From Alphaproteobacteria bacterium (GTDB lineage: Bacteria; Pseudomonadota; Alphaproteobacteria; UBA9219; RGZA01), in NCBI GenBank assembly GCA_033762625.1, contig JANRLI010000009.1, forward strand, positions 1 to 62,038: a DNA stretch of 62,038 nt, in the 5' to 3' direction. The position numbers were made by a program, and so were the translations under genes. Positions 2,409 through 61,996 of the stretch are shown here, piece after piece. Under the pieces are notes generated by a model that was not told where the DNA came from, searched no databases, and saw only the letters and a list, made by a program, of their open reading frames with translations. Every line of letters starts with the position of its first letter. Position 1 is the stretch's first letter.

Positions 2409-3191
2409 ATGGTTGAACTTACCCTTCCGGCGCATTCCAAAGTCCAAACCGGTGTTACACACCCAGCGCCTGCCGGCGTTAAAAATCCGCGCAAGTTTAA
2501 AATCTACCGTTTCAATCCTGATAAAAACGAAAATCCATCACTCGATACCTATACCGTTGATATGGATGATTGTGGCCCGATGGTGCTTGATGCACTGCTC
2601 TATATTAAAAACAAAATTGATCCGACGCTGACGTTTCGCCGTTCCTGCCGTGAAGGTATTTGTGGTTCATGCGCGATGAACATTGATGGACAAAATACAT
2701 TAGCCTGCTTAAAGGCAACCGAAGATTGCCATGGGGATGTCGCTGTTTACCCGTTGCCGCACCGCCCGGTGGTGAAAGATTTAATTCCCGATGTAACGCA
2801 GCTTTACGCACAATACGCATCCATCCAGCCTTGGCTGCAGACACAAACCTTGCCGCCACCGGATAAAGAGCGTTTACAATCGCAAGATGAGCGCAAAAAA
2901 CTTGATGGCTTGTATGAATGCATTTTGTGCTTCTGCTGCTCAACTTCATGCCCGAGCTATTGGTGGAATGAGGAACGCTATCTTGGCCCTGCGATATTAC
3001 TGCAAGCCTATCGCTGGATTGCAGATAGCCGCGATGAAATGACGGGTGAACGTCTGGATAATCTTGAAGATCCATTCCGTTTATATCGCTGCCATACCAT
3101 TATGAACTGCACCAATGCTTGTCCAAAGGGGTTGAACCCCGCGCAAGCGATTGCAGAAATTAAGCAGTTAATGGTTGAACGCCGCGCTTAA
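2409..3191 (+). CDS. sdhB: Succinate dehydrogenase iron-sulfur subunit
   Basis: 260-residue electron-transfer subunit of complex II, passing electrons from SdhA FAD to quinone. The N-terminal ferredoxin domain carries the 2Fe-2S ligands ([16 protein letters not shown], then TLAC). The C-terminal domain carries the 4Fe-4S and 3Fe-4S ligands in [16 protein letters not shown] and [17 protein letters not shown]. All cysteines expected for the three clusters are present. Length is normal for alphaproteobacteria. It is separated from sdhA by about 1.3 kb holding two opposite-strand genes, so it probably has its own promoter. Confidence 0.97.
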
Positions 3192-3298
3192 AAAAGAAGC
3201 GTTTAATACGCCGCCAAAACATTCTTGACCACTTATGTGCGGTGTGAAAAGCTATTCGCATATTCACACCCTTTATTCACATTCGTGGAGATTACTGC

Positions 3299-3922
3299 AT
3301 GGTCATGGATACTGTTACGGATGCTGGCACAGCAACGACGCACGCAGGGAAGAAACCAGATATTCTGGCTTGGTTTGATTGGGCGGAACGCTTGACCACC
3401 GGTCTTGGCACGAAAAGTGAATTGAATGTGATAGAAGAAAACAACTTCGATGCGGTGTTGCTTTCTGCGGTTGCGGCGCTGCATGCAAACAAACCCGGCG
3501 TTCATTTGCCAGAACAACTTCAGGCGGATTTGGATAGAACAGGGGTGGCGGCACCACAACGTCTGGTCGTTAATTCGGGTTCTGCAATTGCCGTTGAAAC
3601 CATCACATTGTTTATGCTGGAACGCCTTGCTACACGCGATGATGAACGCGCATTTGAACTTGCCGAAGATTTACGAATTATTTCAAGGGGCGGTGTTTTT
3701 GCAAACCAGCTTGCACTGTTTCAAATGAGCCTTGCCGATATTAATCCAGATTTGAATACGCGTAATTTTGAACCATGGGGCGATAAGGCGGATCATCTTA
3801 AAGTAGCCAGTGCTCAGCGTTTGGTGAAACCTGATAGTTTTGAAGGGCAAGCAGTTCAAAGCGCCAACCGCGTAATGCAGAGCTATTTTAAAGCACCTGT
3901 ACCACGCCTGGATGCGGCTTAG
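3299..3922 (+). CDS. Hypothetical protein (207 aa)
   Basis: Not recognised. A soluble, mostly helical protein with no signal peptide, membrane segment or cysteine motif. The central part (residues 100-150: VETITLFMLERLATRDDERA, then LAEDLRIISRGG) looks like packed amphipathic helices. The start at 3299 follows GTGGAGATTACTGC, a good ribosome site; a second in-frame ATG two codons later is possible. It follows sdhB by about 107 bases and converges on the next gene, leaving only 9 bases between the two stop codons. Confidence 0.7.
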   Translation: MVMDTVTDAGTATTHAGKKPDILAWFDWAERLTTGLGTKSELNVIEENNFDAVLLSAVAALHANKPGVHLPEQLQADLDRTGVAAPQRLVVNSGSAIAVETITLFMLERLATRDDERAFELAEDLRIISRGGVFANQLALFQMSLADINPDLNTRNFEPWGDKADHLKVASAQRLVKPDSFEGQAVQSANRVMQSYFKAPVPRLDAA

Positions 3923-3931
3923 CTTTTCAAA

Positions 3932-5056
3932 TTAATTGGGGTCGCGGTCACCGCGAACCGTGCGCCATGCGCCGCCAGGAATAACTTCCGTGCCGAATGG
4001 CGTGCGGATAGGAATTTCACGAATAACAACCTTTTGACCTTCGCGGCGCTCAAAACTTTCGCCCTGATGTGCCTCGGCTGACGCATCGTAATCGGCAATT
4101 GGCGGCAGGCTGCGTGGGTCACGTTCTACAGCGCGCTCAACAACTTGCTCTGCTGCTGCGCGTGGACGAGGTTGGCCAGCTATTTCCAATTCATCAATCT
4201 GGATTTTTCCAGCATTGTCCCAAAGGCTGAAGCGAATGCGTGCTCCGCCCCTTAATGTTGTGCCATCAGGATATCCGGAACGGCGAAATGCAGAAACATG
4301 CAAAAATGCATCACGGCCAGCAAGTTCCGGTATGTTTTGGTCCGGTTGAACAAAAGTGAAGCCACGATCAAAATCCTGCTTCAGGCGACCGGAGTATGGC
4401 AAGCCATCGGATTCCGGAATTCCTGCAATATCCTGTGCATCAAAATCACGGTCTGAAGAATAGCTTTGTTGTTGCAAAGGGCGCTCGCCAATTTCACGTG
4501 CCGCGCCACCTAGAATGGTTGTGCGCTCAGGCGGGCGCGCAGAAGGCGTCGCAGTAGGTGTAGCTGTTGGCGCTGCTGCTGGAGCTTTCGGCGTTACTTC
4601 CCATTTGCCGATATGCTTTTCGATTTCAATGCATAATGCGCCAATCGTCATAGTACGATCGCGGCGGCGCTGTGCTTGTATTTGCTGGCCACCTTCAGTA
4701 TCCCACAAATATTTATCATTTACCCATTGGGTAAGGTTTTCGCGTAAATCTTTCGGCAATTTTTTACCTGGCAGGCTGATAATAAAAAGATCCGAACCTT
4801 TATAGGTCCCAGCTATGCGAAGGCCTGTGGTGCCTTCTGCTGCAATCTGTTCATCGCCTTCTTGGATGAGTTCAAAATAAACTGATATAAATGCCTTGGT
4901 GTCTTTATTCCATACCACAGCAACGGCTTGTTTATCATCTGGGGCTCTAAGGATGGGTTGGCGTGGCTTCGCCGTCATGCCGCTAAATGCTGTTTGGCCA
5001 TTCCAAAGCGTATATTCGCTATCTGCCTTTAAATTGAATTCTGTTGGTATGCCCAT
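3932..5056 (-). CDS. Unknown protein with a C-terminal cold-shock-like domain
   Basis: 374-residue protein with three visible parts. Residues 1-165 form an unrecognised globular region without a signal peptide. Residues about 165-185 are a Pro/Ala/Thr linker (PAAAPTATPTATPSARPP). Residues about 222-290 resemble a cold-shock/OB fold: a GRLKQDFDRGFTFVQPDQN segment with an RNP1-like core (RGFTFV, compare KGFGFI), followed by DAFLHVSAFRRSG (RNP2-like, compare DVFVHFSAI), then RIRFSLWDNAGKIQ. This suggests single-stranded nucleic acid binding, but the fusion is unusual, since classical Csp proteins are about 70 residues. The charged C-terminal tail is probably disordered. The cold-shock assignment is by eye. 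Confidence 0.75.
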   Translation of the reverse strand: MGIPTEFNLKADSEYTLWNGQTAFSGMTAKPRQPILRAPDDKQAVAVVWNKDTKAFISVYFELIQEGDEQIAAEGTTGLRIAGTYKGSDLFIISLPGKKLPKDLRENLTQWVNDKYLWDTEGGQQIQAQRRRDRTMTIGALCIEIEKHIGKWEVTPKAPAAAPTATPTATPSARPPERTTILGGAAREIGERPLQQQSYSSDRDFDAQDIAGIPESDGLPYSGRLKQDFDRGFTFVQPDQNIPELAGRDAFLHVSAFRRSGYPDGTTLRGGARIRFSLWDNAGKIQIDELEIAGQPRPRAAAEQVVERAVERDPRSLPPIADYDASAEAHQGESFERREGQKVVIREIPIRTPFGTEVIPGGAWRTVRGDRDPN

Positions 5057-57575: not shown

Positions 57576-57668
57576 GGACGGGTGGCCGAGTGGCCGAAGG
57601 CGGCGGTTTGCTAAACCGTTATAGGGGGTAAACCCTTATCGGAGGTTCGAATCCTCTCCCGTCCGCCA
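57576..57668 (+). tRNA. tRNA-Ser (GCT)
   Basis: A class II tRNA of 93 bases. The acceptor stem GGACGGG pairs with CCCGTCC; discriminator G and an encoded CCA follow. The D-arm starts TGGCCGAG. The anticodon arm GCGGT-TTGCTAA-ACCGT carries anticodon GCT for AGC/AGU codons. The long variable arm (TATAGGGGGTAAACCCTTATC) is typical of serine tRNA, and the T-arm is GAGGTTCGAATCCTC. Its 3' end borders a perfect palindrome and foreign-looking DNA, a usual place for integration. Confidence 0.95.
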
Positions 57669-57705
57669 GTTTATAAAAAGGGCCATATGGCCCTTTTTAT
57701 AAACT
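57668..57705. repeat. Perfect 38-bp palindrome at the tRNA 3' end
   Basis: The 19-base half-site AGTTTATAAAAAGGGCCAT is followed immediately by its exact reverse complement, without spacer, starting on the last base of tRNA-Ser. As RNA it would form a GC-topped hairpin ending in a U-rich strand, so it can serve as the tRNA terminator. Perfect symmetry over 38 bases with A/T arms is longer than termination needs and might also be a protein-binding or recombination site. Confidence 0.85.
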
Positions 57706-57730
57706 AACGTCAGAAGTTTTGAACCGATAA

Positions 57731-57833
57731 GAGGTTCGACAATTTTCGGGAGCGCCCGAAGGTTTTATTTGGGCGCGACCAGAAAATTGCAACTTTGCGA
57801 GCGGCTTAGCCGCGTGGCAAAGTAATCCTCTCC
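57731..57833. repeat. Split copy of the tRNA-Ser T-arm enclosing two hairpins
   Basis: GAGGTTCGA (57731-57739) and AATCCTCTCC (57824-57833) reproduce the T-arm of the adjacent tRNA-Ser (GAGGTTCGAATCCTCTCC at 57642-57659) but are separated by 84 bases. The insert holds two nested inverted repeats: CAATTTTC (57740-57747) with GAAAATTG (57782-57789) around GCGCCC/GGGCGC, and ACTTTGC (57792-57798) with GCAAAGT (57817-57823) around GCGGC/GCCGC. Because AGAGG and CCTCT can pair, the whole could fold as a three-way junction. It looks like a tRNA remnant carrying a small palindromic element; the origin is inferred. Confidence 0.6.
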
Positions 57834-57866
57834 ATTTTTGTTTTCTAAACTAACCCAAGCAAATTT

Positions 57867-58757
57867 ATGGCACCATCCAAAAACCATCACTGGTGGCCTA
57901 TATGTATTTCCGAATTTTGGAAAGATACAAATGGTTGTACAACTAGGTTATCGCCAAGTGGAGAAGCTTTGTGCCGACCGCCAAAAAATTTTGGAGTGAT
58001 TGGGCATGGCCATACTATCAAAATGAGCCGGAAAGCAGGTGAAACAACTGTATGGGATTATAATTTTGAAAATGAGTTTGATAAAGCCGATACTAATTTT
58101 CCAAATGTAATCAAATGGCTAAATAGTCTTCGTCAAGAAAAACGTACCAATGCGCGTAATTCCATAGGTAGATTTTTACCACAAGAGGTACCCGAAGAAA
58201 TGCTTGGCTTACTTATGGAAGGTCTTGTTTCCCTTTGTGTGCGAAGTCCTATGAACCGTAACGCAGCCGCCAGTATAGCTGAAGAATTAAGAGGGGGACT
58301 TGGAGTCCGTGAGCGCAATACCATCATAGCAGCAAATATGCGCTACCAGCAGAGAAATATTGCAGATGGTTTGGGTACTCGTGGCAAGTTTGCAGTTATA
58401 TTTTCTCCAGATCGTGAATATATTTTTGGCGATGGATTCTTTCAGAACCTTTCGTCATCAATTGGTTTGCCGCTTAACCCAGAAATGCTAGTACCGTTAA
58501 CGCCAAGCATAAGCGTGCTGTTTGTTAGGCCGCATCAGTATTCAGCGGAGCCTAGACTTTCGACAATTGTAGTCAGTGCTCAGGAGACAGACATGATGAA
58601 TCATTTTGTTCAAATCTATGCAAAAGATATGATCTTTTATCGACAAGAGAAGCCAGTCTTGGCTCAAGAATTTTATAAAGGAGAGCATCTTTGCCTTAAT
58701 GGCCCAAATAGACCGATTGATGGACTAATACATGGTGTTCTTAATGTGCGTACTTAA
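57867..58757 (+). CDS. DUF4238-like protein, probably horizontally acquired
   Basis: 296-residue protein of unknown function. The start KNHHWWPICISEFWKDTNG and the later FGDGFFQNLSS with LVPLTPSISVLFVRP resemble the order seen in DUF4238 proteins (an N-terminal His/Trp-rich motif and a mid-to-late PLTP segment), a family scattered through mobile DNA. No signal peptide or membrane segment is seen. The gene is AT-richer than its neighbours and uses AGA/AGG arginine codons that they avoid. It sits just downstream of tRNA-Ser and the split T-arm, which suggests island cargo. The family call is moderate. Confidence 0.6.
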   Translation: MAPSKNHHWWPICISEFWKDTNGCTTRLSPSGEALCRPPKNFGVIGHGHTIKMSRKAGETTVWDYNFENEFDKADTNFPNVIKWLNSLRQEKRTNARNSIGRFLPQEVPEEMLGLLMEGLVSLCVRSPMNRNAAASIAEELRGGLGVRERNTIIAANMRYQQRNIADGLGTRGKFAVIFSPDREYIFGDGFFQNLSSSIGLPLNPEMLVPLTPSISVLFVRPHQYSAEPRLSTIVVSAQETDMMNHFVQIYAKDMIFYRQEKPVLAQEFYKGEHLCLNGPNRPIDGLIHGVLNVRT

Positions 58758-58876
58758 AAAAGATGTAATTGTTGAAAATTTCTACATGGATTTTAGAGAA
58801 GCCTTATGCAAAGCTAATATGGTAAAAAAAATAGCTTAAATGGGCCAGTTTATGCCGCCTATCATCAATACTTTTC

Positions 58877-59614
58877 ATGAAACTCACTGCCTATACCTTT
58901 GATAACCTGCCATTTGAAATACGGCCTGCACCGTTTGAACGTGCTTGGATGGATGCAACACGTGAACGCTATGCGTATCGCTGCCTGCCGCTGACGATTG
59001 CCAACACGCATGGGTGGGAGATCTTATGCCCATCGCGGTTTGGTGCAGTGTGGGATGGCGGCGAAAACATGCAGTCCATTCAGTTGATTGAAGATCCGGT
59101 CATCAAGCCATACGCTGTGAGCCATTTCGGGTTTGGCATACTTACTTTCCATATTCACGCATTGTTCCGCACGGAACCCGGATTTGACATGTTTGTGCAA
59201 GGCCCAGTCAATCAGCCCAAAGATGGCATTGCGCCGTTATCGGGCGTTGTTGAAACGGATTGGTCGCCTTATACCTTCACGATGAACTGGAAGTTTACAC
59301 GCAAAGATCATCCGGTGTTTTTCGAGAAGGACGAGCCGTTTTGCCATATTTTTCCAGTGCGACGCAGTGATTTGGAATTAATGGAACCTGGCACACGCCC
59401 GCTTACCGATGTTCCGGAATTAAAACGTGAATACGATACATGGAATGCGAGCCGCACGGGGTTCATCGCCGATCTAAAGCAGGCGGGAACCGAGGCTTAC
59501 GTGAATAAATGGCAAAAATTATATCAGCGCGGCGTAATGCCAGATGGGGAAACGCAAACCGCGCCCGAACACAGAACACGCTTGCGCGTGAAGCCATTTG
59601 TTGAACAGAAATAG
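58877..59614 (+). CDS. DUF6065-like protein
   Basis: 245-residue protein resembling the uncharacterised DUF6065 family: WMDATRERYAYRCLPLTIAN, HGWEILCPSRFGAVWDGG, SHFGFGILTFHIHALFRTEP, VQGPVNQPKDGIAPLSGVVE and DWSPYTFTMNWKFTRKDHP. It is rich in Trp, His and aromatic residues and lacks a signal peptide, suggesting a soluble enzyme or binding protein. No catalytic motif could be named. It converges on the cupin gene with two bases between the stops, and is the left member of an accessory cluster. Confidence 0.68.
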   Translation: MKLTAYTFDNLPFEIRPAPFERAWMDATRERYAYRCLPLTIANTHGWEILCPSRFGAVWDGGENMQSIQLIEDPVIKPYAVSHFGFGILTFHIHALFRTEPGFDMFVQGPVNQPKDGIAPLSGVVETDWSPYTFTMNWKFTRKDHPVFFEKDEPFCHIFPVRRSDLELMEPGTRPLTDVPELKREYDTWNASRTGFIADLKQAGTEAYVNKWQKLYQRGVMPDGETQTAPEHRTRLRVKPFVEQK

Positions 59615-59616
59615 GC

Positions 59617-60297
59617 TTAATGTTCGACCCTGTGGGTACCATTGAACATCGGATGATTGAATTCCAGTCCTGATGGCGGAGAGCTGAAAATATGCAATGG
59701 CAACACCAGTAATGAATCGCCATCTGTCTCGAAGTGGTGGGGGCACATCGGATGTAATACCAATGACATCCCGGCGCTTAGCTCCTGTTTAGCTTGCCAT
59801 TGTTCCATGCCAACGACGCAGCGCCCACGGCCTTCAAGCACATGCACGATGCGTGCAGTGGAATGGATATGATGCGCCTGTTCACTTGAATGCGGTGGCA
59901 AATGTAGTAATTGCAAAGTTGGGTCGCCAATACGCTCTGGCGTAAAGATCTGGCGTGTCGAGCAGCCATTGATGTAAGGCAAATGGGTGGCGCGGCCAAC
60001 GGTCACCGAACGGGCGGATGGTGTATAACCACGGATAACGGTGGCGATGATGGTAGACTGAAATTTAAATGGGCCCGATTGCACATGCGCAACGCCATTT
60101 TTGTCATAGTAATAAACGCAATCCCCTTTTTCAACGTCCACTGCGTGATTACCGTAATAGGTTTTGTAGGTATAAAGATCTGTTTCGCGCGAGCTGCTGG
60201 TTGCTGTGACGCCAGGTTGGAAATATTCGACGCCAAATTTTTTCATCAACTCGCGATGCTTGGCTATCTCGGTATCTTGAAATGCGCTCACATTCAT
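59617..60297 (-). CDS. Cupin-domain protein
   Basis: 226-residue protein with a C-terminal cupin. The first motif is LPPHSSEQAHHIHSTARIVH (His-X-His present, the usual glutamate replaced), then HVLEGRGRCVVG; the second motif is LVLHPMCPHHFE. A three-histidine metal site is plausible. The first 100 residues (YKTYYGNHAVDVEKGD) are unrecognised but may form a second, degenerate cupin-like sheet. TGGAGAAAACAG precedes the ATG. It is the last gene of a minus-strand set with the unknown 197-residue protein and the ATP-pyrophosphatase. Function could be oxygenase, isomerase or sensor. Confidence 0.8.
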   Translation of the reverse strand: MNVSAFQDTEIAKHRELMKKFGVEYFQPGVTATSSSRETDLYTYKTYYGNHAVDVEKGDCVYYYDKNGVAHVQSGPFKFQSTIIATVIRGYTPSARSVTVGRATHLPYINGCSTRQIFTPERIGDPTLQLLHLPPHSSEQAHHIHSTARIVHVLEGRGRCVVGMEQWQAKQELSAGMSLVLHPMCPHHFETDGDSLLVLPLHIFSSPPSGLEFNHPMFNGTHRVEH

Positions 60298-60374
60298 CTG
60301 TTTTCTCCATTCCCACTCTTAACGATTAGGTAATAATTGACACAAAACTCTAAACAATCTCTATACAGCTGGGT

Positions 60375-60968
60375 CTAAATCCTCATTTTTTCTACTTCGG
60401 CGGCAATTAAATCGTTCGCTTTGTCATATTCATGATCCCGGAGCAGCTGGCGGACCTTAAATTCCAGTCGATTCAGGTAAGAAATGACCGTGCGGTAGGA
60501 TTCATATTGCAGCCAAAGCTTGGTGACCAAGGCATCAGGGGTTAGATTTTGTTCATCCGTTTCCAAAAGCGAAGTAATGATCGTGCATTCATCCAAACTT
60601 CCGTTTTTGCGGTATTGGCGGATTTCATCAACCAGCAAGACATCCATTAATGGCTGGCCAATCGAATTATCCGTGTATTTGGCGCGCTGCGTATTTGTGA
60701 TGGTATTAAGCCCGGCTAAAATCTGAAGCTGCTTGATAAGACCTTCGCGTTCATCCCAGTTGGGCGGTAACTCGCCTTCAACCGTATAAAAGCCTTTTTG
60801 CATGCTGTAACCGACATTGCCCCTTGTCACCATATCGTTCAGCGGCATGGGAATGGCGCCGGTGATGCTGTACCATTTTACTTTTTGAACGGCGACCGGC
60901 TTGCTGTATAGCGTTTGCGGGGTCCAGTAAATAATACGCTCTTGAAAAAGATAAATATAAGCACTCAT
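60375..60968 (-). CDS. Unknown protein of the accessory cluster
   Basis: 197-residue protein that I do not recognise. It starts MSAYIYLFQERIIYWTPQT, is beta-rich to about residue 70 and helical afterwards (e.g. LIKQLQILAGLNTITNTQRA, then LEFKVRQLLRDHEYDKANDL). There is no signal peptide or metal motif. It overlaps the ATP-pyrophosphatase gene by 4 bases, so the two products are probably made in fixed ratio. The position suggests a partner or substrate-handling protein of that enzyme. Confidence 0.7.
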   Translation of the reverse strand: MSAYIYLFQERIIYWTPQTLYSKPVAVQKVKWYSITGAIPMPLNDMVTRGNVGYSMQKGFYTVEGELPPNWDEREGLIKQLQILAGLNTITNTQRAKYTDNSIGQPLMDVLLVDEIRQYRKNGSLDECTIITSLLETDEQNLTPDALVTKLWLQYESYRTVISYLNRLEFKVRQLLRDHEYDKANDLIAAEVEKMRI

Positions 60969-61996
60969 CGGATATACTCCACAGCTTGTTCTCTGGTCAG
61001 GTAGTTATAGTCGGTATCAATCGCTTCATAGAATTCGGAAGAGTACCAAATCTGGTACAAGCTACCTACTTTGGGCTTATTGATATAATCAGCAAACCCT
61101 GTTGAGTTGACGATATATTCTTTGGCGGCAAGCTTGTACGTCGAATAACTCTTGGCAATTTTTTTATCGTGATTATCAAAGCTCCAGCGTTGCCATGCGG
61201 GTGTATCATAGAAATGTTTGATTTTCGGGAATGTGTTTTTGGGGTCTGTCCAGCCATTATGCGCAAGTAAGCGGTATTTTACATGCTGCCATTTATTGGT
61301 GAAGTTAAACCACCATATCCAGTCGAATGCGGTAGTAAGCGGGAAAGGGCAGTAGGAAAGGGTTTGTTCATATCGCGGTATGAATGAGGCGGTAATTTCA
61401 GGCCCAAACATGCTACGATAAACGGGCGGCATAATTTCCTGCCACGGTTTGAAAATCCCCCCATCACCATATGTATGCCAAATCGCACGGATTACATCGG
61501 AACCAAACAGCTGATCACCATGTTCACCCGTTACGATATAGCCTTTTTTGAGGTAATATTCGACATGCCGGAAGGACGGCAGAATGCGTCCTTTGAACTT
61601 ATCAACTACAACATTCCAAAGTTCAGGAAATTCAAGCGCACTGTGATGCGATGAAAGAATATAAACGCGTTGCAGCTCTTGGGCTGACCATGTACGTAAA
61701 AACGCAATCACTGCGGATGAGCTGTCAATCCCGCCACTGTACATAATATAAATATTGCCATCGCATTTTTTCATCGCCACCGCATGTTCTTCGGCAACAT
61801 CACCAAAGCTTTTATTGGTGGATGGCATTTTTAGAATATCGCTAATCGGTTCGCAGCCCGCCGAGTAATGAAACGGATCGATCTGGTCAATCAAAACACG
61901 GCTGACCATCTGCGTATAAGGATACTGCCTTGGAAAGCCAGGCTTGAGCGGCAGGGTTTTGACACCTGACATATTTAAGTGAAGAAGCAGACCCAT
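60965..61996 (-). CDS. Asparagine-synthetase-like ATP-pyrophosphatase without glutaminase domain
   Basis: 343-residue protein with the N-type ATP-pyrophosphatase loop SGGIDSSSAV (residues 87-96) and the downstream GEHGDQLFGSD motif of the asparagine synthetase C-terminal domain. The N-terminal Ntn glutaminase domain of AsnB is missing: the protein is about half AsnB length and the first 80 residues show no Cys2 catalytic start. Such stand-alone synthetase folds adenylate a carboxyl group and couple it to an amine, as in lactam or lasso-peptide cyclases. Substrate unknown. An ATG at 61972 is an alternative start. It lies at the right window edge, so upstream partners are unseen. Confidence 0.8.
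   Translation of the reverse strand: MGLLLHLNMSGVKTLPLKPGFPRQYPYTQMVSRVLIDQIDPFHYSAGCEPISDILKMPSTNKSFGDVAEEHAVAMKKCDGNIYIMYSGGIDSSSAVIAFLRTWSAQELQRVYILSSHHSALEFPELWNVVVDKFKGRILPSFRHVEYYLKKGYIVTGEHGDQLFGSDVIRAIWHTYGDGGIFKPWQEIMPPVYRSMFGPEITASFIPRYEQTLSYCPFPLTTAFDWIWWFNFTNKWQHVKYRLLAHNGWTDPKNTFPKIKHFYDTPAWQRWSFDNHDKKIAKSYSTYKLAAKEYIVNSTGFADYINKPKVGSLYQIWYSSEFYEAIDTDYNYLTREQAVEYIR

Follow-up and report, generated by a model that had tools for sequence, protein, structure and literature searches.

A palindromic hairpin module framed by tRNA-matched T-arm copies in Alphaproteobacteria

The window analysed here (the whole stretch of 62,038 nucleotides from an alphaproteobacterial genome, GCA_033762625.1) contains an intact tRNA-Ser(GCT) gene that is followed by a compact series of repeats and hairpins (Table 1). 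An 84-bp insert of two hairpins (57740-57823), termed the module, separates GAGGTTCGA from AATCCTCTCC in a downstream copy of the tRNA T-arm. Within tRNA-Ser(GCT) these sequences lie at 57642-57650 and 57650-57659 with one A common to both, and the split copy therefore carries a one-base (A) duplication. A preliminary description, made from the sequence, had reported T-arm halves recurring around paired hairpins. This arrangement is real, as judged from the sequence, the folds and a second genomic copy that has the halves of its own tRNA, but the halves are not strictly contiguous in the tRNA as had been stated, because of the one-A overlap. The split copy was thus described correctly, whereas an inverted T-arm copy and a palindrome at the CCA end were overlooked. 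The general order of a unit is an intact tRNA (with T-arm copy T1), a palindrome at its CCA end, an inverted copy (T2) and a direct copy (T3) whose T-loop is interrupted by the hairpins. In the window fold, the left half of T3 (A) pairs with T2 to form another hairpin, hp0. The right half (B') lacks the acceptor part and CCA here; both are kept in other genomes.

Table 1. Features of the tRNA-Ser(GCT) locus and its downstream flank
Feature	Position	Strand	Basis or remarks
tRNA-Ser(GCT), intact	57576..57668	+	ARAGORN; Rfam tRNA, 56 bits
Copy T1	57642-57659		T-arm of the intact tRNA-Ser(GCT)
Perfect palindrome, 36 bp	57669..57704	.	Bidirectional terminator-like; begins directly after CCA; sequence, folds, cross-tRNA comparison
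T2	57704..57731	-	Inverted, degenerate repeat of the 3' part of the tRNA; minus strand reads CTTATCGGTTCAAAACTTCTGACGTTAG
T3 left half (A)	57731..57739	+	GAGGTTCGA, exact match to the T-arm 5' side
Module hairpin hp1	57740..57789	+	CAATTTTCGG-GA-...-GA-CC-A-GAAAATTG; stem with GA/GA internal loop
Module hairpin hp2	57792..57823	+	ACTTTGC-GA-...-GT-GGCAAAGT
T3 right half (B')	57824..57833	+	AATCCTCTCC, exact match to the T-arm 3' side
DUF4238-like gene	57867..58757	+	Sub-threshold (E 0.002); comes with the unit; missing from the corresponding site of sister species G008
GCCAGTTTA	58844..58852	+	May be what is left of the tRNA's original 3' end; lies immediately ahead of the DUF6065 gene
DUF6065 gene	58877-59614		Directly after tRNA-Ser(GCT) in G008

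Across units, the palindrome at the CCA end is long and near-perfect, and the acceptor part of T2 is degenerate. The Asp unit of relative G006 provides an example of T2 (minus strand TCGCGGGTTCAAGTCTCTCAAACCCGGCATTTACAATAAAACC, tRNA TCGCGGGTTCAAGTCCCGTCACTCGCGCCATTTACAATAAAACC). Among the tRNAs of G000 (the window genome) and G008 that were compared, long CCA-end palindromes are found mainly at unit-bearing tRNAs, and most unit-free tRNAs lack one. In G006, tRNA-Asp and tRNA-Gly (L189 and L190) are followed by more tandem tRNA 3' ends with another palindromic spacer (GGGGGTGAAG...CTTCA).

The tRNA-Ser(GCT) site of G008 is empty, lacking the whole unit and its cargo. Only 31 bp separate this tRNA from the DUF6065 gene in G008, whereas the unit and the DUF4238-like gene lie between them in the window (1.2 kb in total). 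From 58877 to 61996 the window carries the DUF6065 gene, a cupin gene and two genes without a Pfam match. Genes that adjoin units in relatives include AbiTii and dCTP deaminase-like genes (both above cut-off), as well as sub-threshold matches to SieB and SEC-C. No recombinase gene is present in the window unit or its cargo, or in any other unit. On contig C16 of G000 (L188, 126-2700), a 2.4-kb insert with an AbiTii gene follows tRNA-Met, and beyond this insert lie a tRNA 3' end and then a hairpin unit of type II (see below). In L064, from a Rhodospirillales MAG, a 1.4-kb ordinary-looking island (2442-3950) lies in tRNA-Thr(GGT), between this tRNA and a hairpin unit, with a 46-bp repeat that extends from the anticodon loop to CCA. 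In the sister species G007 (L187, 402-1649), a tyrosine-integrase-like gene, assigned by eye from sequence, directly follows tRNA-Met.

The window-type module (type I) is not confined to this locus. The window genome (26 contigs, 2.23 Mb) has one further copy, 75% identical, located 3' of tRNA-Ser(TGA) and framed by the T-arm halves of that tRNA; its right framing sequence, AATCTCACC, differs from that of Ser(GCT). In relatives, type I is found at Ser-TGA (G008), at Ser-GCT (G007) and at a displaced tRNA 3' end or remnant (G017). Type I hp1 also occurs at Met in G008 and at Thr in L064, where the right framing sequence is the complete tRNA 3' end through CCA. When the window-type model was compared with 385 genomes of the class, matches were confined to this genus; a scan of the order with looser filters added G007 and G017. 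A gapped-pattern scan of genome contigs gave 34 stretches, four of which are real (L056, L058, L064 and L066), three of these being the G008 and G017 copies known already. The other stretches look like chance matches, mainly within coding sequence. No true copy was found in viral contigs (exact 22-mer and gapped-pattern scans) or in the plasmid search. The genomes surveyed are largely drafts or MAGs, and some units lie near contig ends (L002, end of G000 C7; L039, start of G008 C38; L040, start of G017 C40), as repeats are expected to break assemblies.

A second kind of module (type II) was traced with R2, a covariance model built on the Met units of G000, G005 and G006. R2 matches 14/33 genomes of the order at E-values up to 0.05. 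Matches linked to tRNAs in the order occur at Thr-CGT, Leu-CAA, Leu-TAG, Pro-CGG (two tandem units), Pro-GGG, Lys and Glu, and outside the order at Gln-TTG in G132. A match in G115 (L202), with neither a tRNA nor a T-arm frame, was taken as a false positive. In all, searches found two type I and two type II copies in G000. The two types have a common architecture and common boundaries and appear related by these features, rather than by demonstrated sequence homology. The preliminary description had proposed to check whether every copy is located 3' of a tRNA gene. This is so for all window-type copies with readable context. It is not so for type II, which is also dispersed away from tRNAs in G025, G028, G030 and G031, mostly within larger palindromic repeats. 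In G028 (L226), a terminator-like palindrome is followed by a type II module whose frame resembles a T-arm (AGGGTTCGA...AATCCCC); no tRNA is detectable there, and the site possibly marks a lost tRNA gene.

G030 provides a presence/absence comparison for type II with clean borders, between nearly identical repeats in a single genome. There, ten copies of a palindromic repeat whose ends are CGTC/GACG are without the module and three copies have a module of ~82 bp, located at one exact position. The sequence GATCCGGAAYCC is uninterrupted in the ten module-free repeats, which read GATCCGGAAYCCAG, one being a GGCTAG-variant further on. In the three filled copies the module lies between GATCCG and AAYCCAG. 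This break falls inside GAATCC and thus agrees, in both motif and position, with the T-loop break of T3 (TTCGA|AATCC). We infer that the difference arose by insertion rather than by loss.

About 20 units were found among the 33 genomes of the order and in two genomes outside it, beside Ser, Met, Glu, Asp, Lys, Arg, Thr, Leu, Pro and Gln tRNAs. For 20 module-bearing units, the 3' framing, the 5' framing and the inverted copy each fit their own tRNA better than in all 20,000 permutations; several of these units, all chosen because the searches had detected them, are related by descent, so they do not represent 20 independent events. In 123 tRNA genes from seven genomes, sampled regardless of this feature and not including the window locus, 9/123 have their own 3' half repeated (at least 12 nt, within 350 bp), compared with 0.07 expected. 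The T-arm similarity is thus beyond chance and the sequence is neither single-copy nor unconserved, the two observations that, according to the preliminary description, would have spoken against it; the genome-wide search proposed there yielded the second copy at tRNA-Ser(TGA), and further copies are present in relatives. The position and orientation of the module in T3 are fixed: without exception, hp1 adjoins the GGTTC side and the final hairpin the AATCC side. In every copy at tRNAs, the module occupies the spare T3 and never the tRNA itself. Tandem units are found at Met in G006 and at Pro in G025. In several units B' is the full tRNA 3' end through CCA, and one also retains the terminator. 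Units without the module occur at Lys, Gly, Tyr and Val tRNAs, consisting of an inverted left half, a small hairpin and an intact T3, and their copy numbers differ between G000 and G008.

The explanation preferred here, with a probability of roughly 0.6, is that of a mobile DNA element, palindromic and non-autonomous. The 84-bp insert would have as its landing site a GAATCC-like motif within palindromic DNA, represented at tRNA genes by the T-loop/T-stem, and beside tRNAs it is found only in a spare T-arm copy. The spare copy would have arisen when the 3' part of the tRNA was duplicated locally, first inverted and then direct, giving T1 in the tRNA, T2 inverted and T3 direct; this order resembles tandem inversion duplication by template switching at palindromes, which may have been the step involved. 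Insertion into the tRNA itself would destroy it, and the module would lie in the spare T3 instead. An enzyme supplied in trans would presumably act on the hairpins, either as cruciform or as ssDNA. The type I module of the window is presumed to move as type II does. Of the options raised in the preliminary description, a mobile palindromic element that targets the T-arm is the best supported, since numerous tRNAs, and other places too, have related modules and the break point in G030 falls cleanly in GAATCC; the presence/absence was seen for type II.

Candidate systems for such movement were considered. The Y1_Tnp domain (RAYT/IS200-like, PF01797) is present in 8/33 genomes of the order and absent from G000 and from the module-rich G025, G028, G030 and G031; mobilisation by a RAYT was rejected, as the occurrence of Y1 does not correlate with the module. 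A bridge-RNA guide (IS110/IS1111) was considered because the T-arm halves flank a stem, and was rejected because B' is a direct copy that in other units reaches CCA, and because no transposase of this kind adjoins it. Homing of a CAST was also considered; no CRISPR-associated gene was noticed in a general view of the genes beside units.

The whole unit (a new 3' half for the tRNA, the palindrome, the inverted T-arm, the left half and the hairpins) could instead be a miniature integrative element that a site-specific (tyrosine) recombinase inserts at the T-loop, displacing the old 3' half as B'. T-loops of tRNAs are known integrase crossover sites, and the CCA-terminated B' sequences (one with its terminator), the tandem units and the ordinary islands at the same tRNAs (the 1.4-kb L064 island with its 46-bp repeat and the integrase-like gene at tRNA-Met of G007) are all consistent with this. 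It is nonetheless unlikely: in module-bearing units the hairpins lie exactly between both crossover halves, a related module is also found inside unrelated palindromes, a recombinase is encoded in no unit, and transfer to another tRNA would import the wrong 3' half, yet the arms fit their own tRNA. By analogy with integron attC and CTX attP, T2 and the split T3, which are able to pair in the folds, might fold on one strand into a double-stranded T-arm with the module bulged out. Such a folded recombination site could use the adjacent tRNA T-arm as attB, and units with defence-like cargo would accumulate behind tRNAs; this is distinctly unlikely. Slighter still is the probability that the units are purely a by-product of replication, in which template switching at T-arm and terminator palindromes gave triplications and imperfect hairpins with no mobile element involved. 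Tandem inversion duplication is a class of rearrangement with just such order and junctions, so the T1-T2-T3 order and palindromic junctions fit, as do the module-free units of variable copy number. This would leave unexplained why one module recurs, with precise boundaries, at different tRNAs, across families and within dispersed repeats, and is disfavoured by the G030 comparison.

The folds bear on a possible RNA role for the module. The RNA fold of 57711-57850 reaches -57.3 kcal/mol (z -5.8), and the ssDNA folds of the window are significant for both strands (z -5.6 and -4.6). The two module strands fold about equally well and the hairpins are nearly all Watson-Crick, with G-U pairs making up 3.9% of the module stems versus 11.9% in shuffled controls. 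The palindromes are kept as symmetric DNA. A structured RNA with a conserved function, made by read-through from the tRNA or transcribed off the other strand, would fit the strong fold, the compensatory changes in the Met-unit hairpins (four pairs with double compensatory changes and none broken, in three sequences only) and an inverted copy that could pair with the tRNA. The near-equal folding of both strands, the rarity of G-U pairs, the long terminator-like palindrome between tRNA and element, the differing occupancy among species and an Rfam search with no family above the gathering score for the element make this highly improbable. A kink-turn reading of the GA/GA loops was rejected because the three-nucleotide bulge is missing. 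Least probable of all is that the units are remnant attachment sites of unrelated classical islands. Gene neighbours vary from unit to unit (AbiTii and dCTP deaminase-like; SieB, SEC-C and DUF4238 below threshold), as such remnants would predict, but the T-arm is split, in the units examined an inverted copy precedes the module, and the plain att remnant suggested earlier leaves unexplained a hairpin module that is common to different tRNAs.

The palindromic element has partial likenesses among known systems. The repeats of E. coli tyrT (rtT) are tandem, lie 3' of a tRNA gene and each hold the tRNA 3' end. The module-free Gly and Lys units are tandem direct repeats with a tRNA 3' end and may be comparable to rtT in arrangement; we know of no inverted T-arm copy or hairpin module in rtT. 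Rickettsia palindromic elements (RPEs) are known for insertion in ORFs and, to our knowledge, have no tRNA T-arm framing. The module may be likened to them in kind, as an alphaproteobacterial palindromic repeat (PMC3733652). CGTC REPs are small non-coding palindromes, mostly alphaproteobacterial, for which a survey found no dedicated transposase, and REP dimers have been reported inserted within longer palindromes (PMC3733652). The module resembles CGTC-tagged REPs and REP dimers (BIME-like) as a small non-coding palindrome, and in G030 the repeat around it has CGTC/GACG ends. Unlike CGTC REPs, it is ~53-101 bp in length, has two or three hairpins rather than the single 20-40 bp hairpin of high-copy REPs, is low-copy in G000 and lies in tRNA T-arm copies. 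The terminal GTAG/CGTC tag is absent from the module, which has the ends CAATTTTC.../...GCAAAGT in the window and ACGAAAC.../...TTTTCACA in G030. REP/RAYT and IS200/IS605-derived miniatures have hairpins at both ends, little or no target duplication and no long terminal inverted repeats (PMC2817692; PMC3733652). The module has hairpins at both ends and at most one A duplicated, and may in this be comparable to the IS200/IS605-derived miniatures; it is unlike RAYT systems in that the Y1 transposase is missing from its richest genomes and from G000. MITEs have terminal inverted repeats of 15-30 bp and duplicate their target, whereas the ends of type II share only ~5 nt (CAAAA/GCAAAAA) and no more than one A is duplicated. 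The duplicated tRNA 3' half (the B' repeat) beside an intact tRNA recalls integrative islands of tRNA genes, which are bounded by att repeats, but the unit lacks their recombinase gene, measures only ~150-200 bp and has its attachment halves split by hairpins. As the defining features were tested and are absent, no membership among REPs, MITEs or integrative islands is claimed. The unit is real, non-random and wider in extent than a single locus, and is best seen as a palindromic, probably mobile repeat with tRNA-arm framing.

In this family the point at which the module is present or absent is defined exactly, a probable target motif is common to REP-like palindromes and tRNA T-arms, and the framing matches each host tRNA. 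The family thereby gives a handle on how orphan palindromes with no known transposase move, and on why islands and defence genes gather at tRNA 3' flanks.
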